Source: Spirochaetota bacterium (GTDB lineage Bacteria > Spirochaetota > Spirochaetia > DTKZ01). Taken from it: a DNA stretch of 39,943 nucleotides. The stretch spans positions 1 to 39,943 of the forward strand of contig JAOABU010000121.1 of the NCBI GenBank assembly GCA_026418195.1, written 5' to 3'. Made by a program: the position numbers and the translations under genes. The notes beneath the pieces are model-generated. The model had not been told where the DNA came from, ran no database searches, and saw nothing but the letters and a program-made list of their open reading frames with translations. This document shows positions 28,046 through 37,105 of the stretch, one piece after another (position 1 is the stretch's first letter; each line of letters starts with the position of its first letter).

Positions 28046-28074
28046 TTGACAACAGAAAAGAATCGTACTATTGT
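28046..28074 (+). promoter_or_regulatory. birA: Promoter of birA-bioYMN
   Basis: TTGACA, 17 bases, TATTGT. Transcription should start near 28081, about ten bases before the birA ATG. The -10 lies inside the BirA operator. Confidence 0.6.
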
Positions 28075-28102
28075 TAACCATTCTTTTTTTATGGTTAACA
28101 AT
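28070..28102. promoter_or_regulatory. BirA operator (biotin box)
   Basis: A perfect 12-bp inverted repeat, ATTGTTAACCAT and ATGGTTAACAAT, around nine bases. The core TTGTTAACC / GGTTAACAA is the well-known BirA operator half-site in many bacteria. It covers the -10 box, the start of transcription and the first four codons of birA, so biotinyl-AMP-bound BirA would shut off its own operon. Confidence 0.85.
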
Positions 28103-29104
28103 GAACTGGTCATTCAACACCGGGCGAAAGTCCTGAATATTCTTCGCTCCGCTTCCAAACCCGTTTCCATCAAGATCCTGTCTGGAGAATTGGGAATTAC
28201 AAGGGTAGCTCTCTGGAAGTTGATACGAAAACTGGAAGAATTGGGATATCCCATTGAGGGAAGTAGAAATGGCTACTATCTTCCAAAGGAACACGATCCC
28301 GACCTGCTCTGCCCATGGGAACTAGAACCCTATGGATCGAGAATCGAATGGTTCTTCAAGGTTACTTCCACGATGGAAGAGGCGAAAAGATTCTCCCGCA
28401 CCAATACGCATGCTCCTCAAACAAACCCCTTCTACACCATTGCCGAGACTCAGACTGAAGGAAGAGGGAGATTCCAGCGCACCTGGGAATCTCCGTTGGG
28501 AGGAATCTATTTCACGTTGTCCATCCATCGAACCATTCCTTTAGCAATCGTTGGACGCTACCCTCTGCTGGCTGGCGCAATCCTGGTAGAAACCTTACAG
28601 GCGATATTACCTGGACTGAGTGGTGCCTCAGATCCCCATGCTCCATTAGCAAAGGGAATCAGTCTCAAATGGCCCAACGATATTATGATAGGAAAACGGA
28701 AACTAGGGGGAATCTTGCTGGATATGGATGTCGAGGGAGATACGGTTACCGGCATCTACTTAGGAATCGGCATCAACATACGGAACCGTACCATAGGTCC
28801 AAACGGCGTCTCTTTGATCGACCTCTTCGGACAGTCTGTACCTCCTAAAAGGGAGATCCTGCTCCATTACCTTCGACGCTTAGAGAAGGCACTGGAAGAC
28901 CCGTATCTGAAATCCGCCATTCCCAAATGGAAACGGTTTTCCTCTACCTTAGGGAAGCCCGTTCGAATCCGTTTCCCCGAAGGAAGTCGCGCGGGTCTAA
29001 CGGGCTGTACTGGAATTGCAGTGGATCTGGGATCGGGAGGAGAACTGGTGGTTCAAACTTCTGACGGATCCCTCCGGATTGTTAATTATGGAGATTGTTA
29101 CTAA
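28091..29104 (+). CDS. birA: Bifunctional biotin-protein ligase / biotin operon repressor
   Basis: A 337-residue protein from the ATG at 28091; a TTG at 28046 would overlap the -35 box. Residues 8-65 are a winged helix-turn-helix (ILSGELGITRVALWKLIRKL, GYPIEGSRNGYYL), so it binds DNA as well as joining biotin to carboxyl carrier proteins. The ligase core shows TQTEGRGRFQRTW (the biotinyl-AMP loop), SLKWPNDIMIGKRKLGGIL with the catalytic-region lysines, and GIGINI. A small C-terminal domain follows. There is no Shine-Dalgarno; the start codon is the right arm of its own operator. It heads an operon with bioY, bioM and bioN. Confidence 0.95.
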   Translation: MVNNELVIQHRAKVLNILRSASKPVSIKILSGELGITRVALWKLIRKLEELGYPIEGSRNGYYLPKEHDPDLLCPWELEPYGSRIEWFFKVTSTMEEAKRFSRTNTHAPQTNPFYTIAETQTEGRGRFQRTWESPLGGIYFTLSIHRTIPLAIVGRYPLLAGAILVETLQAILPGLSGASDPHAPLAKGISLKWPNDIMIGKRKLGGILLDMDVEGDTVTGIYLGIGINIRNRTIGPNGVSLIDLFGQSVPPKREILLHYLRRLEKALEDPYLKSAIPKWKRFSSTLGKPVRIRFPEGSRAGLTGCTGIAVDLGSGGELVVQTSDGSLRIVNYGDCY

Positions 29105-29128
29105 CCATTACGAAGAGAGGAACCATCT

Positions 29129-29788
29129 ATGTCACCAAATAAAGACCAATCACTCATCCAAACCCTGAACCCCTTACAGCGAACGGTGTTGATCGCCTTG
29201 GGTGCAGCCTCCATAGCTGTAGGAGCTTTCATAGCCATCCCCCTTCCTGTAAGTCCTGTACCCATTGTTCTGCAGAACTTTTTCATCCTGTTGATGGCTC
29301 TCGTCCTGGGTCCTAAGATGGGAACCGCTTCGGTAGCTCTTTACCTAATCACAGGAGCTTTGGGGTTACCTGTATTCGCTGGAGGGAAAGGTGGGGTTGC
29401 CCATTTCTATGGTCCTACCGGAGGGTACCTTGTCGGATTTCTCCTTTCTGCAGGAATTACTGGAGCCGTCTCGGGAATAGGTGCGAAACAGAGCTCAATG
29501 AATCAACAAAAACCGGTGGAAATGAGCCTTCCGGAGTCAAAAAAAAGAAAAGAGCGGGTAAAGATACGTGTTCAGGATGTGGCAGCGGTCGCAGCGGGGG
29601 TTTTCACTGTATACCTGTTCGGTGTGCCCTGGTTAGCTTACAAGCTGGGTTTTCATTGGACAAAAGCCCTCTTGGTAGGGTTTCTGCCATTTCTGCCAGG
29701 AGATCTCATAAAAGCTACGGCCGCCGCTGCTTTGGCCCCTCATGTGCGCAGGCTCCTTAGAAAAGAGTTCTTTCCCTATGCAGGATAA
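29129..29788 (+). CDS. bioY: Biotin transporter S component BioY
   Basis: A 219-residue membrane protein with six hydrophobic segments and the BioY pattern GAFIAIPLPVSPVPIVLQNFF, FAGGKGGVAHFYGPTGGYLVGF and LPFLPGDLIKA. It binds biotin and docks on an ECF module. Between the third and fourth helices lies a charged insertion of about 35 residues (QSSMNQQKPVEM to ERVKIRVQD), making it longer than the usual 180-190. AGAGG precedes the ATG. It starts 24 bases after birA. Confidence 0.95.
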   Translation: MSPNKDQSLIQTLNPLQRTVLIALGAASIAVGAFIAIPLPVSPVPIVLQNFFILLMALVLGPKMGTASVALYLITGALGLPVFAGGKGGVAHFYGPTGGYLVGFLLSAGITGAVSGIGAKQSSMNQQKPVEMSLPESKKRKERVKIRVQDVAAVAAGVFTVYLFGVPWLAYKLGFHWTKALLVGFLPFLPGDLIKATAAAALAPHVRRLLRKEFFPYAG

Positions 29789-29828
29789 CCATTCCATGGT
29801 TTCGCCAACCCAATCGGAAGGGTACCTA

Positions 29829-30620
29829 ATGGGACAAAACCCAAATCCAGATTCTCTGGACATCCGTTGTCCCGATTTGGAAACGAGAAACCTCACATAT
29901 ATGCTTCCTAGTGGGGTGAAGGCACTGTGCCAGGTATCCATCTCCTTTTACAAAGGGGAGTTCGTCCTGTTAGCTGGGAGAAATGGATCAGGCAAGACAC
30001 TGCTAGCGCGTCAGTTAGTTGGACTCCTCCGACCTACAGAAGGATCGGTTCTGTTCAGGGGCGTTCCCCTTCCCCGATGTCTCGATAAAGCCCGCCAGAA
30101 AGTCGGCTTAGTGTTCCAGGACGCGGATAGTCAAGTCCTTGGCCAAACCATTGAGGAAGAATTGAGGTTCGGGCCCGAAAATCTAGGCGTACCGGAAGAA
30201 GAAATACAACGACGGGTAGAAACCGTCATCCGTCTGTTAGATCTGGAACAGAACCTCCTCACCCCTCCAGATCGCCTTTCAGGGGGGGAAAAGCGTCGGT
30301 TAGCTATTGGAGGAATCCTTACCATACAGCCAGAGCTGCTGATCCTGGACGAACCTTTTGCGAACCTAGACTATCCAGGGATCGTATCAGTCCTTCACCT
30401 TCTACTCCAGCTGAAGGAGAAAGGAATTGGTATCATATTGATTACCCATGAACTGGAAAAAGCTCTAGCTCATGCAGATCGACTCGTAATTTTGGAAAAA
30501 GGAAGAATCGTAGAGGATGGTACAGTTCAAACTATAGCTCCCAGGGCAGGTCAGTATGGTCTGCATCCTCTGGATTTTTCCCGGACACCTTTGGAATCCT
30601 GCACATGGCTCCCTCGTTGA
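29829..30620 (+). CDS. bioM: Energy-coupling factor ATPase of the biotin transporter
   Basis: A 263-residue ABC ATPase. I start it at MGQNPNPDSL because GGAAGGG lies six bases upstream; ATGs at 29778 and 29796 are alternatives that would overlap or touch bioY. Walker A is AGRNGSGKTLLA, the Q-loop FQDADSQVLG, the ABC signature LSGGEKRRLAIGG, and Walker B LLILDEPF, followed by the H-loop ITHELE. It powers biotin uptake with BioY and BioN. It is the only ATPase in the operon, so this is a dedicated BioMNY-type system. Confidence 0.93.
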   Translation: MGQNPNPDSLDIRCPDLETRNLTYMLPSGVKALCQVSISFYKGEFVLLAGRNGSGKTLLARQLVGLLRPTEGSVLFRGVPLPRCLDKARQKVGLVFQDADSQVLGQTIEEELRFGPENLGVPEEEIQRRVETVIRLLDLEQNLLTPPDRLSGGEKRRLAIGGILTIQPELLILDEPFANLDYPGIVSVLHLLLQLKEKGIGIILITHELEKALAHADRLVILEKGRIVEDGTVQTIAPRAGQYGLHPLDFSRTPLESCTWLPR

Positions 30621-31219
30621 TCTTTCACCATATCCCAGGGACTACCCCTCTCCATCGGATAAACCCTCGATGGAAACTCATTGCCTATCTCGCTGTCTCC
30701 CCCCTAGCCATGGTGAGTCCTCCCCTTTACCTTGGAGGTCTAACTCTCCTTACTTTTGCGCTTTACATATGGATCCGATTGAGCCCTGTTTCGATTCTAA
30801 AGGAAGCACGTCCTCTCTGGGTACTAGCTATTATCCTACTGACCTTTCGAACCCTTTCAAATGGGATCGAAAGCGGAATGTTAGAGACGACACGGTTTGC
30901 ATGGTTGATATTTTGGACTCATCTATTTCTGGCATCGACTTCTACTGGAGACATTCGGAAAGCCATCGGATCCTTCTTGCAGATTCTTCCCAAGAACCTC
31001 GGGAAACGGATTGGATTAGCCCTAAGCATCACCCTTCTTCTGTTTCCCCTTTTTCTCGATCTCTCCAGGGAAATCCTTGATGCTATGACTCTACGGCAAT
31101 TTGGCTCCAATCGGTCGTTTCTATTCATTACGAAGAGATTCCTGATGATCTTCCTTCGAAAAGCTTTTCGAATGGCAGGTAGTCTGTCCCAGGCATTGGA
31201 AATGCGAGGCTTCCAATAG
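30605..31219 (+). CDS. bioN: Energy-coupling factor transmembrane protein of the biotin transporter
   Basis: A 204-residue EcfT/BioN-type protein with four or five hydrophobic helices. The family hallmark is the coupling-helix motif ALEMRGFQ at the C-terminus (Ala-x-x-x-Arg-Gly), which contacts the ATPase. The early HRINPRWKLIAYLA is also typical. It overlaps the ATPase gene by 16 bases, showing tight coupling, and completes the bioY-M-N set. It converges with the beta-helix protein gene ten bases downstream, with no terminator visible between them. Confidence 0.9.
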   Translation: MAPSLIFHHIPGTTPLHRINPRWKLIAYLAVSPLAMVSPPLYLGGLTLLTFALYIWIRLSPVSILKEARPLWVLAIILLTFRTLSNGIESGMLETTRFAWLIFWTHLFLASTSTGDIRKAIGSFLQILPKNLGKRIGLALSITLLLFPLFLDLSREILDAMTLRQFGSNRSFLFITKRFLMIFLRKAFRMAGSLSQALEMRGFQ

Positions 31220-31229
31220 GGAGTACCGG

Positions 31230-31886
31230 CTATACCAAGGAGCCTTTAGGAATGAACGTTCCGGGTTTCAAGTGTACTCCCCTATGAACTCGAACCCCCG
31301 GACATAGGAAACTACCTAAACGATGGCATCCCGTGGGATGGGATACTCCAGGAGGATACTCTACGCAAAGGGGGATGGGGTCATTTCCCCGGGTAAGGGT
31401 AGTCACTCGATCCTCCAGAATTACTTCTTTCCCCAAGATTGAATCTAGAACCGTACTGAAAGAACCAATCCTGACTCCTTCACAGAGGATGGAGGACCGA
31501 ATATCTGCCCCTCGTTCCACTCTTGTCCCTTTTCCTAGGTACGATGGTCCTTGCAAGTACACTTCTTGCCCGATTTCAACCCCTTCTCCGATCACAATAG
31601 GCCCCAATAAGGAAGCAGTCCCGTGTATCCGTACGCTTTTCGCTACCCAAACCAAGGGTAGGATCTCTTCGTACTCGGGTTCTAGAAACGGCATGCCTGC
31701 ATCCAATAGGGTGGAAAGGTGTTGAATCAGTTCCCATGGAGTTCTGATCGTTGGCAAAAGACGTTGTTCTCGAGTTCTTTTCCTTCCTGGATGAAAGATC
31801 CAGTGAAAGAAGGGTTCGTCCAACACCTCGAGAAGGGAGAGCAAAGAATCTAGAAGGGATGAATCATGGGGGAAGTTTTTGTTCAT
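31230..31886 (-). CDS. Left-handed beta-helix (hexapeptide repeat) protein
   Basis: A 218-residue protein. Residues 1-75 form a helical leader (LLDSLLSLLEVLDEPFFHWIF...). Residues 78-215 contain [I/V]-G-x-x-V hexapeptide turns such as IVIGEGVEIGQEV, YLGKGTRVERGADI, GVRIGSFS and LGKEVILEDRV, typical of GlmU C-terminal halves and sugar-nucleotide acyltransferases. No nucleotidyltransferase domain is present, so it is not GlmU itself. The function is unknown; a sugar or cell-wall acyltransferase-like or binding role is possible. Its start overlaps the end of the LysR gene by 23 bases, suggesting coupling. Confidence 0.75.
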   Translation of the reverse strand: MNKNFPHDSSLLDSLLSLLEVLDEPFFHWIFHPGRKRTREQRLLPTIRTPWELIQHLSTLLDAGMPFLEPEYEEILPLVWVAKSVRIHGTASLLGPIVIGEGVEIGQEVYLQGPSYLGKGTRVERGADIRSSILCEGVRIGSFSTVLDSILGKEVILEDRVTTLTRGNDPIPLCVEYPPGVSHPTGCHRLGSFLCPGVRVHRGVHLKPGTFIPKGSLV

Positions 31887-32769
31887 TCCCTAACGTCACT
31901 GTTTCCCAAAATGCACGTACCACGGGGTGCTGCAGCCTCCGTTTCATGGCCGCTAGACCATAGTTGTAGCCTACGATCTTTGGGTGCACATCGAGGATCT
32001 GAATGTTAGGTTTTATCGCTTCTGTGCGAAGAAGCAATTCTGGCACAACTCCTACCCCACTTCCCAAAGAAACAAGGGCAAGCACCTCCTCGAAGGAATT
32101 CGCCTCGGCCATAATCCGTGGTCGGATGTCTTTACCCCGAAACCAGGCCTCTACCCTTCTCCTGCAAAGGTCGGATCGAGTTAAAACCAAGGGAACTTCC
32201 CCCCATTCAATCGGGGTTTTCGAGGTAACGGCCTTGGCTTTGCAGTCCAGAATAGGACGAATAAACACCAATGGAGTTTCTCCCAACCGATGTAGCAGAG
32301 CCCCCTTTGGCACATAGTCGGGAAGAGAAAGCAGAACTGCACAATCCGCTTCATTTTCGGTTACTTCGATCATCGGTGCCTGTTCATCCAGAAGCCGTAT
32401 ATTCAGAGTGACATTCGGATAAGCGTGTCGAAACTTCTTTACCAACACAGGGAGGATTGCATAGGCTGCAGAGAGGGAAGCGACGATCGATACTTCCCCT
32501 CCCATTTGGGTTGGCTCCTCCTCGAGACTTTCCTGGAGCTCCTGATACTCCTGCAGAGCCTTTTTTGCATATGTATAGAACAATTCCCCCGCTCTAGTTA
32601 GGGAAACGGATCGGTTGTCCCGTATAAAGAGAGGTTTCCCGACCTCTTCTTCTATCCGTTTGATAGTTCTAGACAAGGCTGAGGGGCTTAGGTTACTAAG
32701 CTCCCCTGCTTTCCCAAAGTGCAGGGTGCGGGCAAGATTCACGAAACATTTCAGCGCAAATAAATCCAT
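31864..32769 (-). CDS. LysR-family regulator, IlvY-like
   Basis: A 301-residue LysR protein. The N-terminal helix-turn-helix (MDLFALKCFVNLARTLHFGKA, SPSALSRTIKRIEEEVGKPLFIRDNRSVSLT) and the effector domain, including LVFIRP, RRRVEAWFRGK and GVGVVPELLL, follow Escherichia coli IlvY closely as I recall it. IlvY activates ilvC in response to branched-chain pathway intermediates. No ilvC is in the window, but ilvE lies 6 kb away. An alternative is a regulator of the sphingoid genes just upstream. A symmetric array of TTGC half-sites covers its promoter, so autoregulation is likely. Confidence 0.85.
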   Translation of the reverse strand: MDLFALKCFVNLARTLHFGKAGELSNLSPSALSRTIKRIEEEVGKPLFIRDNRSVSLTRAGELFYTYAKKALQEYQELQESLEEEPTQMGGEVSIVASLSAAYAILPVLVKKFRHAYPNVTLNIRLLDEQAPMIEVTENEADCAVLLSLPDYVPKGALLHRLGETPLVFIRPILDCKAKAVTSKTPIEWGEVPLVLTRSDLCRRRVEAWFRGKDIRPRIMAEANSFEEVLALVSLGSGVGVVPELLLRTEAIKPNIQILDVHPKIVGYNYGLAAMKRRLQHPVVRAFWETVTLGNEQKLPP

Positions 32770-32833: not shown

Positions 32834-34039
32834 TTATATGATCCCGAGTTTCTTTCCCTCATCTTCGGCGATATTGAGGATTGTATCCAATTCCTCATCT
32901 GTATGAATCGCCATGTAAGAGGTACGCAGAAGAGACCGGTTGGGTGGTACCGCCGGAGATACGACCGGATTCACATACACTCCTCGGTTGTACAAAGCCT
33001 GCCAGAGGAGAAAGGTTTTTTCATCGTTTCCAATGATCAGGGGAACGATGGGAGTCTGGGCTGTTCCGATATTGTATCCCATGCTCTTAAAACCTTCGAT
33101 CATCTTTCGAGCGATTTGCTGTAATCTCAGTACCCGTTCTGGCTCCTGTTCAATGATTTCCAGGGTTTTCAGAACTGCTGCTAGATTGGCGGGAGGCATA
33201 CTAGCGGAGAAGATCAAAGGTCGAGCTGTATGCTTGATATACTCTATGATATCTGCATCCCCTGCCAGGAACCCTCCAATGGAGCCAAAAGATTTTGAGA
33301 AGGTACACATAATGATGTCCGCCAGATCGCTGGAACCGAAATGCTCGGTGGTGCCTCTTCCTGTAGGTCCAATTGTACCAATCGCATGGGCCTCATCCAA
33401 GTAGACCCCGGCATTGTACTTATCGGCAATCCGTTTTAACGTGGGCAGGTCTACAATATCCCCTTCCATGCTAAACACCCCATCTGTCACGACCAGTTTC
33501 GGTTCATCTTCGGGGATCGCTTGCAGTCGTTCTTCCATTTCCTGCATGTTCCCATGGGGATACCTATGTACTTTCACATCCCCATAGAGGCCTTTGGCGA
33601 GGAAGATCCCATCCATGATGGAAGCATGGTTATACTTATCCGTAACGATGTGTTCACCTCTCCCCAAGAGTGCCGAGATTCCGCCCAAATTCGTCTGGTA
33701 GCCTGTAGTGAAACAGATAGCTGCTTCCTTTCCTGTAAATCGAGCCAACCTTCGTTCTAGCTCCTCATGTAGGTCCAGCGTTCCGTTCATGAACCGAGAG
33801 CCCGAGCAACTAGTACCATAGATCCGTACCGCTTCTTCTGCAGCTGCTTTCACTCGAGGGTCGTGAGAAAGCCCTAAATAATTGTTGGAACCGGCCATGA
33901 TGAACTCACGGCCCTCGATAATCACCCGAGACCCGCGATATGCTTCAATGGGTCGGAAATACGGATACCATCCTTCCGCTTTTGCTTTTCGTACCTCATT
34001 CAGTCTTCCGTCCTTACGAAAAATCGCTTTCTTTACCAT
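32834..34039 (-). CDS. Serine palmitoyltransferase (alpha-oxoamine synthase family)
   Basis: A 401-residue PLP enzyme started at MVKKAIFRKDG; an upstream in-frame start would lie inside the reductase gene. Signatures: GWYPYFRPIE, AGSNNYLGLSHDPRV, SGSRFMNGTLDLHEELE, H138 in YNHASI, D215/H218 in LDEAHAIGTIG and the PLP lysine K249 in TFSKSFGSIGGF. The match to bacterial serine palmitoyltransferase (for example Bacteroides Spt) is closer than to BioF or Kbl, as recalled. It condenses serine with an acyl-CoA or acyl-ACP to 3-ketosphinganine. The gene follows a 3-ketosphinganine reductase by 26 bases, which supports the assignment. Confidence 0.88.
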   Translation of the reverse strand: MVKKAIFRKDGRLNEVRKAKAEGWYPYFRPIEAYRGSRVIIEGREFIMAGSNNYLGLSHDPRVKAAAEEAVRIYGTSCSGSRFMNGTLDLHEELERRLARFTGKEAAICFTTGYQTNLGGISALLGRGEHIVTDKYNHASIMDGIFLAKGLYGDVKVHRYPHGNMQEMEERLQAIPEDEPKLVVTDGVFSMEGDIVDLPTLKRIADKYNAGVYLDEAHAIGTIGPTGRGTTEHFGSSDLADIIMCTFSKSFGSIGGFLAGDADIIEYIKHTARPLIFSASMPPANLAAVLKTLEIIEQEPERVLRLQQIARKMIEGFKSMGYNIGTAQTPIVPLIIGNDEKTFLLWQALYNRGVYVNPVVSPAVPPNRSLLRTSYMAIHTDEELDTILNIAEDEGKKLGII

Positions 34040-34065
34040 AGGTGTTGCCTCTCTAGTTTCCCAGT

Positions 34066-34911
34066 CTATTTGGACTGTATTTGTTTTCGACAGTTCCGAA
34101 CGGTTCGATCCATTACCCATCGTACCATAATCGGCATGTGCCGGGCTACCCACGCAGTGAACCGGGCTTGGAATCCGGGTATGATCATGAATTTCCCCTT
34201 CGATAACCCTCGGAACAGTTCCTCTGCCACCGTTTCTGGTCTCAATACTCCCGCATTGGCGGAAATTGCTTTTGTCTCTGGAGGTTTCCTTCGGTTCTCC
34301 TTTTCAAAACCAGGGGTGTCGGTATCGGGAGGGCAAAGCACAGCGATCTGTACCCCTTCGGATACGAGTTCGCTCCGTAGGGCTTCGGAAAATCCAATCA
34401 CTCCTGCCTTGGCTGCACTGTACGCGGTGTACCCGAATACCCCTACGAGTCCTGCTAGGGAGGATACATTCACAATAATTCCTTGATTCTTCTTTAGATA
34501 GGGAAGAAGAGTCTTGGTAACATACCATGTACCTCTCAGGTGAACACTGATGGTCTGTTCGAATAATGAATCCGGAATCCGATCGAAGTAATCCGGAAAA
34601 GCCTCTCCTGCACAATTGAGAAGGAAATCGGGCTCTCCAAACTCTTGTACCGCACGAAGTAGATGCTCCTTTACCTGTTCTGGATTTCCCACATCCAGGG
34701 AAAGCGTCCGAACGCGAGGTTGCAGTTCGATCCTACCAGAAGCGTTAACCCGTTCAGGTGTTAGAACTCTCACTGCCTGTTCCAATCGGTTTCTGTCCCG
34801 GGCAATCAGCAGTACATCTGCCTTCCTTCGAACCAACTCTTTTGCAACGGCCAGCCCAATACCACTGGAACCTCCCGTAATAAAAGCACAACGAACCGTC
34901 GCTTCCGGCAT
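34066..34911 (-). CDS. 3-ketodihydrosphingosine reductase (KDSR-like)
   Basis: A 281-residue short-chain dehydrogenase. Cofactor motif GGSSGIG at residues 13-19, NCAG at 99-102, catalytic S151, Y164 and K168 (YSAAK). Residues 194-216 contain PPDTDTPGFEKENRRKP followed by PETKAIS, which parallels the eukaryotic KDSR/FVT1 sequence closely as recalled and is not typical of other SDRs. A hydrophobic C-terminal patch (near residues 250-268) could sit on the membrane, as in KDSR. It reduces 3-ketosphinganine to sphinganine with NADPH. It is the first gene of a pair with the serine palmitoyltransferase. The ATG is almost at the predicted transcription start. Confidence 0.88.
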   Translation of the reverse strand: MPEATVRCAFITGGSSGIGLAVAKELVRRKADVLLIARDRNRLEQAVRVLTPERVNASGRIELQPRVRTLSLDVGNPEQVKEHLLRAVQEFGEPDFLLNCAGEAFPDYFDRIPDSLFEQTISVHLRGTWYVTKTLLPYLKKNQGIIVNVSSLAGLVGVFGYTAYSAAKAGVIGFSEALRSELVSEGVQIAVLCPPDTDTPGFEKENRRKPPETKAISANAGVLRPETVAEELFRGLSKGKFMIIPGFQARFTAWVARHMPIMVRWVMDRTVRNCRKQIQSK

Positions 34912-34919
34912 GTCCCCTT

Positions 34920-34947
34920 TTTATACACTTTTCCTATTGGCTGTCAA
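34920..34947 (-). promoter_or_regulatory. Promoter of the sphingoid-base genes
   Basis: On the minus strand TTGACA, 16 bases, TATAAA, then eight bases to the ATG, so the leader would be about two bases. Confidence 0.6.
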
Positions 34948-35027: not shown

Positions 35028-35636
35028 ATGGGTAGTGAATCGAATCTGTCAGAACCCCGGTACCTTGCAGGATATTTTCTCATTGCTAGCGTGAACCTTA
35101 TGGACCCCAACTTTGTTCGTACCGTTGTTCTCCTCATTCAGCATAACGAAGAAGGTGCTTTTGGTTTAGTGTTGAATAGGCCTTCGGGTAAAGAACTCAA
35201 CGACGTGCTTCCAGAAAGTCTCGAGGGTGCTGTTCTCCATGTCCCTGTCTATATTGGGGGTCCCGTACAACAGGACTATCTTTTCGTTCTGCACTCGGGA
35301 TTAGAGAACAAACTGCTCAATCCCAATGCAACATCCCCCATTCCTGGTGTGTTTTTCGAACCTGCCACAAAACAATTGATTAGTTACCTGATCGACGAAT
35401 GGAACATTACGCCCCTAGAAGACAGACCTAAACTCCGATTGTACGCAGGGTATTCCGGTTGGGGGCCCGGACAATTGGAACGGGAATTGAGGGAAAACTC
35501 CTGGTTCGTAGTCCCCGGACATCAGAGTATCGTGTTTCATCCTGAACCAGACAATGCTTGGAAGGATGCATTGAGTCGCAAAGGGAAATACTATCGCTTC
35601 GTAGCAGAAACAGGTTATATGCCATCGATCAACTGA
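35028..35636 (+). CDS. YqgE/AlgH (UPF0301) family protein
   Basis: A 202-residue protein with the complete family pattern: GYFLIASVNLMDPNFVRTVVLLIQHNEEGAFGLVLNRPSG at the start, then YIGGPVQQDYLFVLHS and YAGYSGWGPGQLERELRENSWF. The family is widespread, cytosolic and of uncertain function, with reported links to transcription of alginate genes in Pseudomonas (AlgH). The last 22 bases overlap the end of aroDE on the other strand. It is divergent from the sphingoid genes. Confidence 0.95.
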   Translation: MGSESNLSEPRYLAGYFLIASVNLMDPNFVRTVVLLIQHNEEGAFGLVLNRPSGKELNDVLPESLEGAVLHVPVYIGGPVQQDYLFVLHSGLENKLLNPNATSPIPGVFFEPATKQLISYLIDEWNITPLEDRPKLRLYAGYSGWGPGQLERELRENSWFVVPGHQSIVFHPEPDNAWKDALSRKGKYYRFVAETGYMPSIN

Positions 35637-37105
35637 CGAGGGTACTCTTTACCCGTAAAAAGCAGGAACTGTCTAAAGGCTTGATGAATCAGCATCGCAT
35701 CCCCATAGATGACGGTACAACCAGCAGCCTTGGCTCGCTTAAGGAATCGAGTTTCCCTGGGTGCATATACCAAATCGTACACTACTTCTTGCCCCTTGAA
35801 GAATAGGTCTGGAAAAGGATCTTCCTCTTCATAGGGATGCATTCCGCACGAGGTAGTCTGCACCACCAAGTCTGGTTGAAACTGCTCCACCCTCGAGGCA
35901 CCCTCTCGATCGAGAGGGCCGGTTGTTATGGTTCCTGTTGAGAGGGAGAGGGTTTTTCCCATCTCCGCTGCTAAACTCTCGGCCTTTGCAACGGTTCGAT
36001 TGAGAATCAATACACGTGCTCCCTCTCGGGCTAACCCATACACGATGGATCGAGCTGCTCCACCAGCTCCGATCACGAGGGCTTTTTTACCCGTTACCCT
36101 AGGGAACACTCTGTTCAGAGGAACCAAGAACCCTTCCACATCCGTGTTGTACCCCTTGATGGATTTCTCCGAGAAAACTAAGGTGTTACAAGCTCCCACA
36201 GCCAGAACGCTGTCTTCACACCAGTCACAATATTTCAACACAGATTCTTTGTGAGGGATGGTGACGGAGAGACCTCTAAGGGGCAACTTTGGAGCAATAG
36301 AAAAAAACGGCTCCAGATCATCCACGGGAAAGGGAACATACACTGCATCAATCCCCAATGCATCATACCCTCGATTGTGTAGGTGAGGTGACCTACTATG
36401 GAGGACAGGGTTCCCAATGATTCCAAAAAGAGCTGTATGAGGCGTAAGGGAAGTGTATCGGTACACAGTTTTAAGTGTGATGGGATCCACTAGAGGACCT
36501 TTCGATTGGGGAGAGGTGAAGGTGAAATAGGACCCTAGATGGCTCGATAGAACCTGAAAGGGGTATCCATACGGGCCCTCCACGGCAAAACTTCTCCGCA
36601 TCCCCCATGTTTCCACGGTTCTATCGAGAATCACTCGTTCCACAATGGGACCTAGTTCTTTCCAACCAGAAGGGTTCAAGGTAAGGTGTAGGACGTCTCT
36701 TTCCTTTACGAAATCCTGTGCAAAAGGGAACGGATAGGCACTGAAATTTCTAATAGAGATCGAACGAATCACCCCTACGTCGTACGAATGAGCCACTTTT
36801 TCTAAGGTTTCATGAACTCCTCTAGGCTTATACTCCTCGTACGGTATCCGAACCATATCGAAAAGTCTTCGCTTTAAAAGAGTTCTGTAAAAGTCTATCA
36901 CAGGTTCTGCTTCGGACATTAGTGCTCTAGGTAAGGAAAGAATGCGGAACCCCTGAGTCCGCCGGGAGATGGACTCCCAATCCTCCCGTTCGGGATGTTT
37001 CAGGGTTTCTACTTCGATCTCGAATCCATCGAAGTATCCTTCGTGGCTTTGTAACCTGAGGAACACGTCATCCAATGTGCTCTCGGAAACGCGTAAGATC
37101 ACCAT
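35615..37105 (-). CDS. AroDE: degenerate dehydroquinase domain fused to shikimate dehydrogenase
   Basis: A 496-residue fusion. Residues 222-496 are an intact shikimate dehydrogenase: FGIIGNPVLHSRSPHLHN, catalytic K286 in VTIPHK, D322 in YNTD, the cofactor loop GAGGAARS, and a final GDAMLIHQAF. It reduces 3-dehydroshikimate to shikimate. Residues 1-215 resemble type I dehydroquinase by layout (FDGFEIEVE, LFDMVRIP, VGVIRSISIRNF, DVLHLTLNPSGW), but the catalytic His is replaced by R119 and the Schiff-base Lys by H140, and the arginine after the first Glu is also missing. That half is probably catalytically dead. Fusions of this kind are known in spirochaetes and chlamydiae. Confidence 0.9.
   Translation of the reverse strand: MVILRVSESTLDDVFLRLQSHEGYFDGFEIEVETLKHPEREDWESISRRTQGFRILSLPRALMSEAEPVIDFYRTLLKRRLFDMVRIPYEEYKPRGVHETLEKVAHSYDVGVIRSISIRNFSAYPFPFAQDFVKERDVLHLTLNPSGWKELGPIVERVILDRTVETWGMRRSFAVEGPYGYPFQVLSSHLGSYFTFTSPQSKGPLVDPITLKTVYRYTSLTPHTALFGIIGNPVLHSRSPHLHNRGYDALGIDAVYVPFPVDDLEPFFSIAPKLPLRGLSVTIPHKESVLKYCDWCEDSVLAVGACNTLVFSEKSIKGYNTDVEGFLVPLNRVFPRVTGKKALVIGAGGAARSIVYGLAREGARVLILNRTVAKAESLAAEMGKTLSLSTGTITTGPLDREGASRVEQFQPDLVVQTTSCGMHPYEEEDPFPDLFFKGQEVVYDLVYAPRETRFLKRAKAAGCTVIYGDAMLIHQAFRQFLLFTGKEYPRQLIDGI

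Follow-up and report, generated by a model that had tools for sequence, protein, structure and literature searches.

In Bacteroides thetaiotaomicron, the 3-ketodihydrosphingosine reductase (KDSR) BT_0972 is encoded at a different locus from the serine palmitoyltransferase (SPT) (PMC9278070). In Pseudomonas, one cluster (PfSgaB/PfSgaC) combines an enzyme with SPT activity and a KDSR homologue, and free sphinganines and probable phosphoglycerol sphingolipids accumulate (PMC12134224). Another set of proteins, SPT-AcpR-AasR-CerR-CerS, is used by Caulobacter and E. coli B, where reduction by CerR has been proposed to take place after N-acylation, in the periplasm (PMC9386255, PMC11324152, PMC11087976). 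A Black Sea study reported SPT genes in 38 phyla; spirochaetes are not named in its main text (PMC11334938). Open papers were also searched for sphingolipid biosynthesis or SPT in spirochaetes, with no relevant result.

The window analysed here is a stretch of 39,943 nucleotides from a spirochaete metagenome-assembled genome (MAG; 3.13 Mb, 98.6% complete, 158 contigs). Two open reading frames on its minus strand, which a first-pass annotation had read as an SPT-KDSR pair, were found again at the same coordinates. The reductase gene comes first (34066..34911, 281 residues). It is followed, after the 26-base gap already noted in the first pass (34040-34065), by the gene of a 401-residue PLP enzyme, an SPT-type alpha-oxoamine synthase (32834..34039; ATG at 34039, stop at 32834). 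A longer GTG frame for the SPT, which would reach 34153 and overlap the reductase, is unlikely. Among named relatives, the closest are MAGs of uncultured Spirochaeta and Spirochaetales, which have near-identical loci and SPTs 96-98% identical to that of the window; the initial assignment to a probable spirochaete is thereby borne out. Within the genus, dN/dS values range from 0.015 to 0.025 for the SPT and from 0.10 to 0.16 for the reductase. Purifying selection acts on both genes; neither is a chance open reading frame. Elsewhere in the window, a 496-residue protein (35615-37105) carries a shikimate dehydrogenase in its C-terminal half, and its N-terminal half is possibly a 3-dehydroquinate dehydratase of type I, in a bifunctional AroD-AroE arrangement.

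A single promoter had been proposed for the two genes. The motif TTGACA-N16-TATAAA (34920..34947, minus strand; TTGACA at 34947-34942, TATAAA at 34925-34920) lies 8 bases before the reductase ATG, and both hexamers are invariant in four of four species of the window genus, which supports the proposal. The conserved promoter was missed by an automated scan because the scanner accepts only -10 hexamers that end in T. Since TATAAA stands only 8 bases before the ATG in the four species, transcription would begin about 2 bases ahead of the start codon, and the mRNA is probably leaderless. The SPT has a ribosome-binding site of its own, AGAGAGG (34048..34054, minus strand), in the 26-base gap and eight bases before the ATG; the same motif precedes the SPT in the congeneric loci L002 and L003. 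No terminator-like site was found on the minus strand between the reductase and SPT genes. On the same strand, 64 bases after the SPT, lies an IlvY-type LysR regulator (31864-32769) that scores above the NCBI cut-off. The interval is free of terminator-like sites, and the synteny is kept in L002 and L003.

The PLP enzyme was compared with family models and with solved structures. Its best model is NF047600 (SerpalmtaseCFB, the NCBI equivalog for the Bacteroidetes-type SPT) at 495.5 bits; this score does not reach the curated cut-off of 640 bits, and the protein is not filed as an equivalog member. The best solved relative is the Sphingobacterium SPT (411 bits), and the Sphingomonas SPT gives 276 bits. 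Scores against the other solved relatives are about 241 bits for Kbl, 214 for the cysteate fatty acyltransferase and at most 195 for BioF, with one chain labelled BioF/Kbl at 272. In a tree of 65 rows, the window SPT falls inside a clade of 17 Spirochaetota rows (SH-aLRT 100), which itself lies within a group of SPTs from Sphingobacterium, Parabacteroides, Bacteroides and Prevotella. Outside this group are E. coli Kbl and BioF, the spirochaetes' Kbl-like paralogues, LCB2 of humans and plants, and the SPTs of Proteobacteria. The SPT locus of B. thetaiotaomicron is BT_0870. The tree is a quick one, with moderate support of 83-95 on its deep branches. Alignment with 8guh revealed the SPT-type segments GSRFMNGT, NHASI with its histidine, TFSKS with its lysine, and SPAVPP..LLR. 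The catalytic lysine, the stacking histidine, the carboxylate-binding arginine and the GSR..NGT segment are all present. Judged by phylogeny and motifs, the PLP enzyme is a member of a broad clade of bacterial SPTs.

These comparisons also bear on whether the enzyme might instead be Kbl (glycine C-acetyltransferase) or BioF (8-amino-7-oxononanoate synthase), next to an unrelated short-chain dehydrogenase/reductase (SDR). The proteins share one fold family and the BioF/Kbl models do score 299-366 bits (the BioF/Kbl subfamily and related models at most 370), but the SPT model exceeds the Kbl and BioF models by more than 100 bits, and the tree places both enzymes elsewhere. Furthermore, the window protein has TFSKS and SRFMNGT where Kbl has TLGKA and SVRFICGT, its pairing with a KDSR is conserved, and neither tdh nor biotin-synthesis genes are adjacent. 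The window does hold a biotin-uptake cluster (28046-31219) made of BirA, BioY, an ECF-type ATPase and the gene of a probable ECF permease. Biotin is therefore probably imported, and the presence of uptake rather than synthesis genes nearby speaks against BioF. An identity as Kbl or BioF is thus very improbable, and we rejected it on the basis of the tree, the motifs and the context. The PLP enzyme is the only member of the alpha-oxoamine synthase family found in the genome.

Because SPT, Kbl and BioF are alike in fold and chemistry, the acyl donor and the amino acid are uncertain from sequence. The enzyme might use an amino acid other than serine: from alanine, glycine or cysteate it would form 1-deoxy, 1-deoxymethyl or capnine-type bases, respectively, for the reductase to act on. 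The residues checked do not reveal substrate choice, and 1-deoxyceramides have been reported from anaerobic waters in which many phyla bear SPTs (PMC11334938). However, the active-site segments match those of characterised serine-using SPTs, the best family match is an SPT, and among solved structures SPT is ahead of the cysteate enzyme (411 vs 214 bits), so that another amino acid is unlikely. Serine remains our preferred substrate.

A human KDSR sequence was used in the alignment and in the trees. It is 35% identical to the window reductase (160 bits) over almost the whole chain, and the two proteins have PPDTDTPGF and EN.KP in common. The PPDTDTPGFEKENRRKP region, from which the first-pass annotation had recognised a KDSR, is present. 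The motifs of the reductase are TGGSSGIG, VSS, YSAAK and PPDTDTPG. A PPDTDTPG..EN..KP segment follows the catalytic Tyr-Lys and does not occur in the ordinary SDRs of the alignment; solved TSC10 retains only the ENRTKP part of it, and PPDTDTP is near-invariant across the KDSR clade. This clade of 41 rows was supported at 95/90 and 96/96 in two trees, in which TSC10 was represented by 8jat and BT_0972 was not among the rows. It unites human KDSR and TSC10 with reductases of spirochaetes and Chloroflexota, the window reductase among them, and with two rhizobial reductases encoded beside alpha-oxoamine synthases. The other SDRs of the window and two Prevotella SDRs are outside. Among the classical SDR residues, Ser, Tyr and Lys are present and the alpha-4 Asn is replaced by His (SVHLRG); His occupies this position in the window, L002 and L018, and Asn in L003 and most family members. 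The chain starts at the Rossmann strand, and both the sequence and the predicted model lack the N-terminal membrane anchor of eukaryotic-type KDSR. The best single-domain solved relative is the fungal TSC10 8jat, slightly ahead of other SDRs. Many classical SDRs match the predicted fold, with HSD17B13 first, and KDSR is not singled out; TSC10 was not among the 50 matches listed. On the evidence of motifs and phylogeny, the window reductase is an SDR of the 3-ketosphinganine reductase type.

From these two identities we infer a short pathway. The SPT would join L-serine and a long-chain acyl thioester into 3-ketosphinganine, whose ketone would be reduced in the cytoplasm by the KDSR-type enzyme to give sphinganine. 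The cofactor would be NADPH, a choice that fits the Arg after beta-2 of the reductase. The order of steps would be the eukaryotic one, with reduction before any N-acylation. It is likely that the two genes make sphinganine, which would then be used without N-acylation, for instance by putting a head group directly on the base, or be acylated by an enzyme not recognised here.

The first-pass annotation had emphasised the compactness of the pair, and this holds well beyond the window. KDSR lies directly upstream of SPT, on one strand, in the window genus (L002, L003, L018), in the closed genomes G006 and G049, which belong to one family, in G142, G263, L004, L007 and G087 (L057), and, outside Spirochaetota, in one Chloroflexota genome (L014). 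The gaps between the two genes range from about -4 to 103 bases. This adjacency in several spirochaete families and in a member of another phylum indicates a conserved operon. In G256 (L055), L005, L057, L080, L081 and L082, the order is c2-KDSR-SPT, c2 being a protein of about 375 residues. The c2 family is also found after SPT at loci that lack KDSR (Elusimicrobiota, Nitrospirota and Oligoflexia); at those of Nitrospirota, the opposite side is taken by an epimerase-type reductase similar to CerR of E. coli. The c2 profile matches YghO of E. coli BL21 at 352 bits, and yghO (ECD_02850) is listed as the counterpart or orthologue of the Caulobacter ceramide synthase CC_1154 (PMC9386255). These data identify c2 as a CerS homologue. 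As read from gene content, the operons are either CerS-KDSR-SPT or (CerR-)SPT-CerS, with one synthase common to both and two unrelated reductases. A genome of the same class (G063, locus L064) carries an SPT of another, 53%-identical type and neither a KDSR nor a CerS homologue.

The search for a bacterial ceramide synthase, suggested in the first pass, was then carried out with the CerS (YghO/CC_1154) profile and returned nothing at E<=1 for the window genome. Nor was a match obtained in three further genomes of the window genus (G326, G348, G356) or in G006, G049, G142 and G263, all seven of which keep KDSR and SPT. The same search matched 18 of 32 genomes, including every non-spirochaete SPT genome tested. 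G006 and G049 are single contigs, so that incomplete assembly is not the cause of the absence there. A LAG1/TLC-type synthase (PF03798) was absent from ten of ten genomes tested, the window genome included, and no CerR homologue adjoins the operon. These genome-wide absences refer to one search program and two acyltransferase families. With both families absent, the known route in these lineages stops at sphinganine. Two PF00781 kinases, possible long-chain-base kinases, occur in the window genome; they are uninformative because the family is nearly universal.

An unrecognised N-acyltransferase might nevertheless replace CerS and complete the pathway to ordinary dihydroceramide. N-acyltransferase families are many, of which two were searched, and a CerS homologue accompanies this SPT in most spirochaetes beyond the window genus and two other families, as well as in all nearest SPT relatives outside Spirochaetota in the set examined. 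Against this, neither the CerS profile nor PF03798 yields a candidate, and within the genus no N-acyltransferase of these two families lies beside the operon. A complete ceramide pathway is possible, if rather doubtful. Given the lack of CerS in the window genus, sphinganine would most likely be used without N-acylation or be N-acylated by an enzyme not recognised here. The Pseudomonas bacterium that accumulates free sphinganines gives the unacylated end product a precedent (PMC12134224). We propose tentatively, though as a serious candidate, that the two or three spirochaete lineages with a CerS-less KDSR-SPT pair may base their sphingolipids on sphinganine that is not acylated, or may possess a third kind of ceramide synthase.

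The KDSR-type family was found in 54 of 296 Spirochaetota genomes (E<=1e-35). Reductases with PPDTDTP are common in this phylum and present in Chloroflexota, and close variants occur in rhizobia. The best plasmid matches of the window reductase (L132, L133) are SDRs from rhizobia; each is encoded next to an alpha-oxoamine synthase, and either a polyketide synthase or a large SDR-domain protein lies upstream. A constraint that joins human KDSR to the window genus was not rejected (AU p 0.109), and neither was one for a eukaryotic KDSR clade (AU p 0.19). A single functional clade of SPT-adjacent reductases was rejected (AU p 0.006), and similar reductases occur in genomes that have no adjacent SPT; some members of the family may hence act on other ketones. 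At four loci of other spirochaetes (L063, L070, L062, L058), a KDSR-type reductase adjoins an epimerase-type reductase of cluster c4 in a conserved arrangement, and SPT is not an immediate neighbour. Some of these loci also encode a small membrane protein (cluster c21) or a second SDR, which has a PDSxDTPM motif. The SPT and KDSR assignments of the first-pass annotation stand up to the refuting conditions that it had named, since the PLP enzyme clusters with neither Kbl nor BioF and the SDR falls within the KDSR clade, and the compact operon stands too. Its suggestion that the reductase points to eukaryotes is unsupported, since KDSR-type reductases are common in bacteria and the tree leaves the direction of descent unsettled; the absence of CerS, which stands beside the pair in related genera, had gone unnoticed. 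A transfer of the reductase from eukaryotes is neither shown nor excluded by the tree.

Sphingoid-base synthesis plausibly extends to uncultured spirochaetes, in a compact operon with the eukaryotic order of steps that exists with and without a bacterial ceramide synthase. The CerS-less form predicts membranes with long-chain bases and no known route to ceramide. If this is true, lipids of unacylated sphinganine, or a third ceramide synthase, would be a membrane chemistry undescribed for spirochaetes in the literature searched. The wide occurrence of KDSR-type reductases in bacteria bears on the origin of the eukaryotic enzyme without settling it.

Compared with the described systems, the window pair would perform the same two chemical steps as the Bacteroides/Sphingobacterium SPT and BT_0972, and the SPTs belong to one bacterial group, but as one operon instead of two loci (PMC9278070). 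With PfSgaA/B/C it shares the clustering of an SPT-type alpha-oxoamine synthase and a KDSR-type reductase; the Pseudomonas chain comes from a polyketide synthase, whereas none is encoded near the window pair (PMC12134224). The SPT step is common to Caulobacter and E. coli B, and a CerS homologue occurs in related spirochaete operons; unlike these bacteria, the window has a KDSR-type SDR in place of CerR, no adjacent AcpR or AasR, and no CerS in the genome (PMC9386255, PMC11324152, PMC11087976). The reductase resembles human KDSR and TSC10 of the yeast family, with about 35% identity to the human enzyme along the whole chain and the PPDTDTPGF..ENR.KP motif, and differs from the human protein in lacking the N-terminal membrane anchor and in length (281 vs 332 residues). 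The component families are known, and the compact KDSR-SPT arrangement, with its CerS-less form, is a new variation on them.
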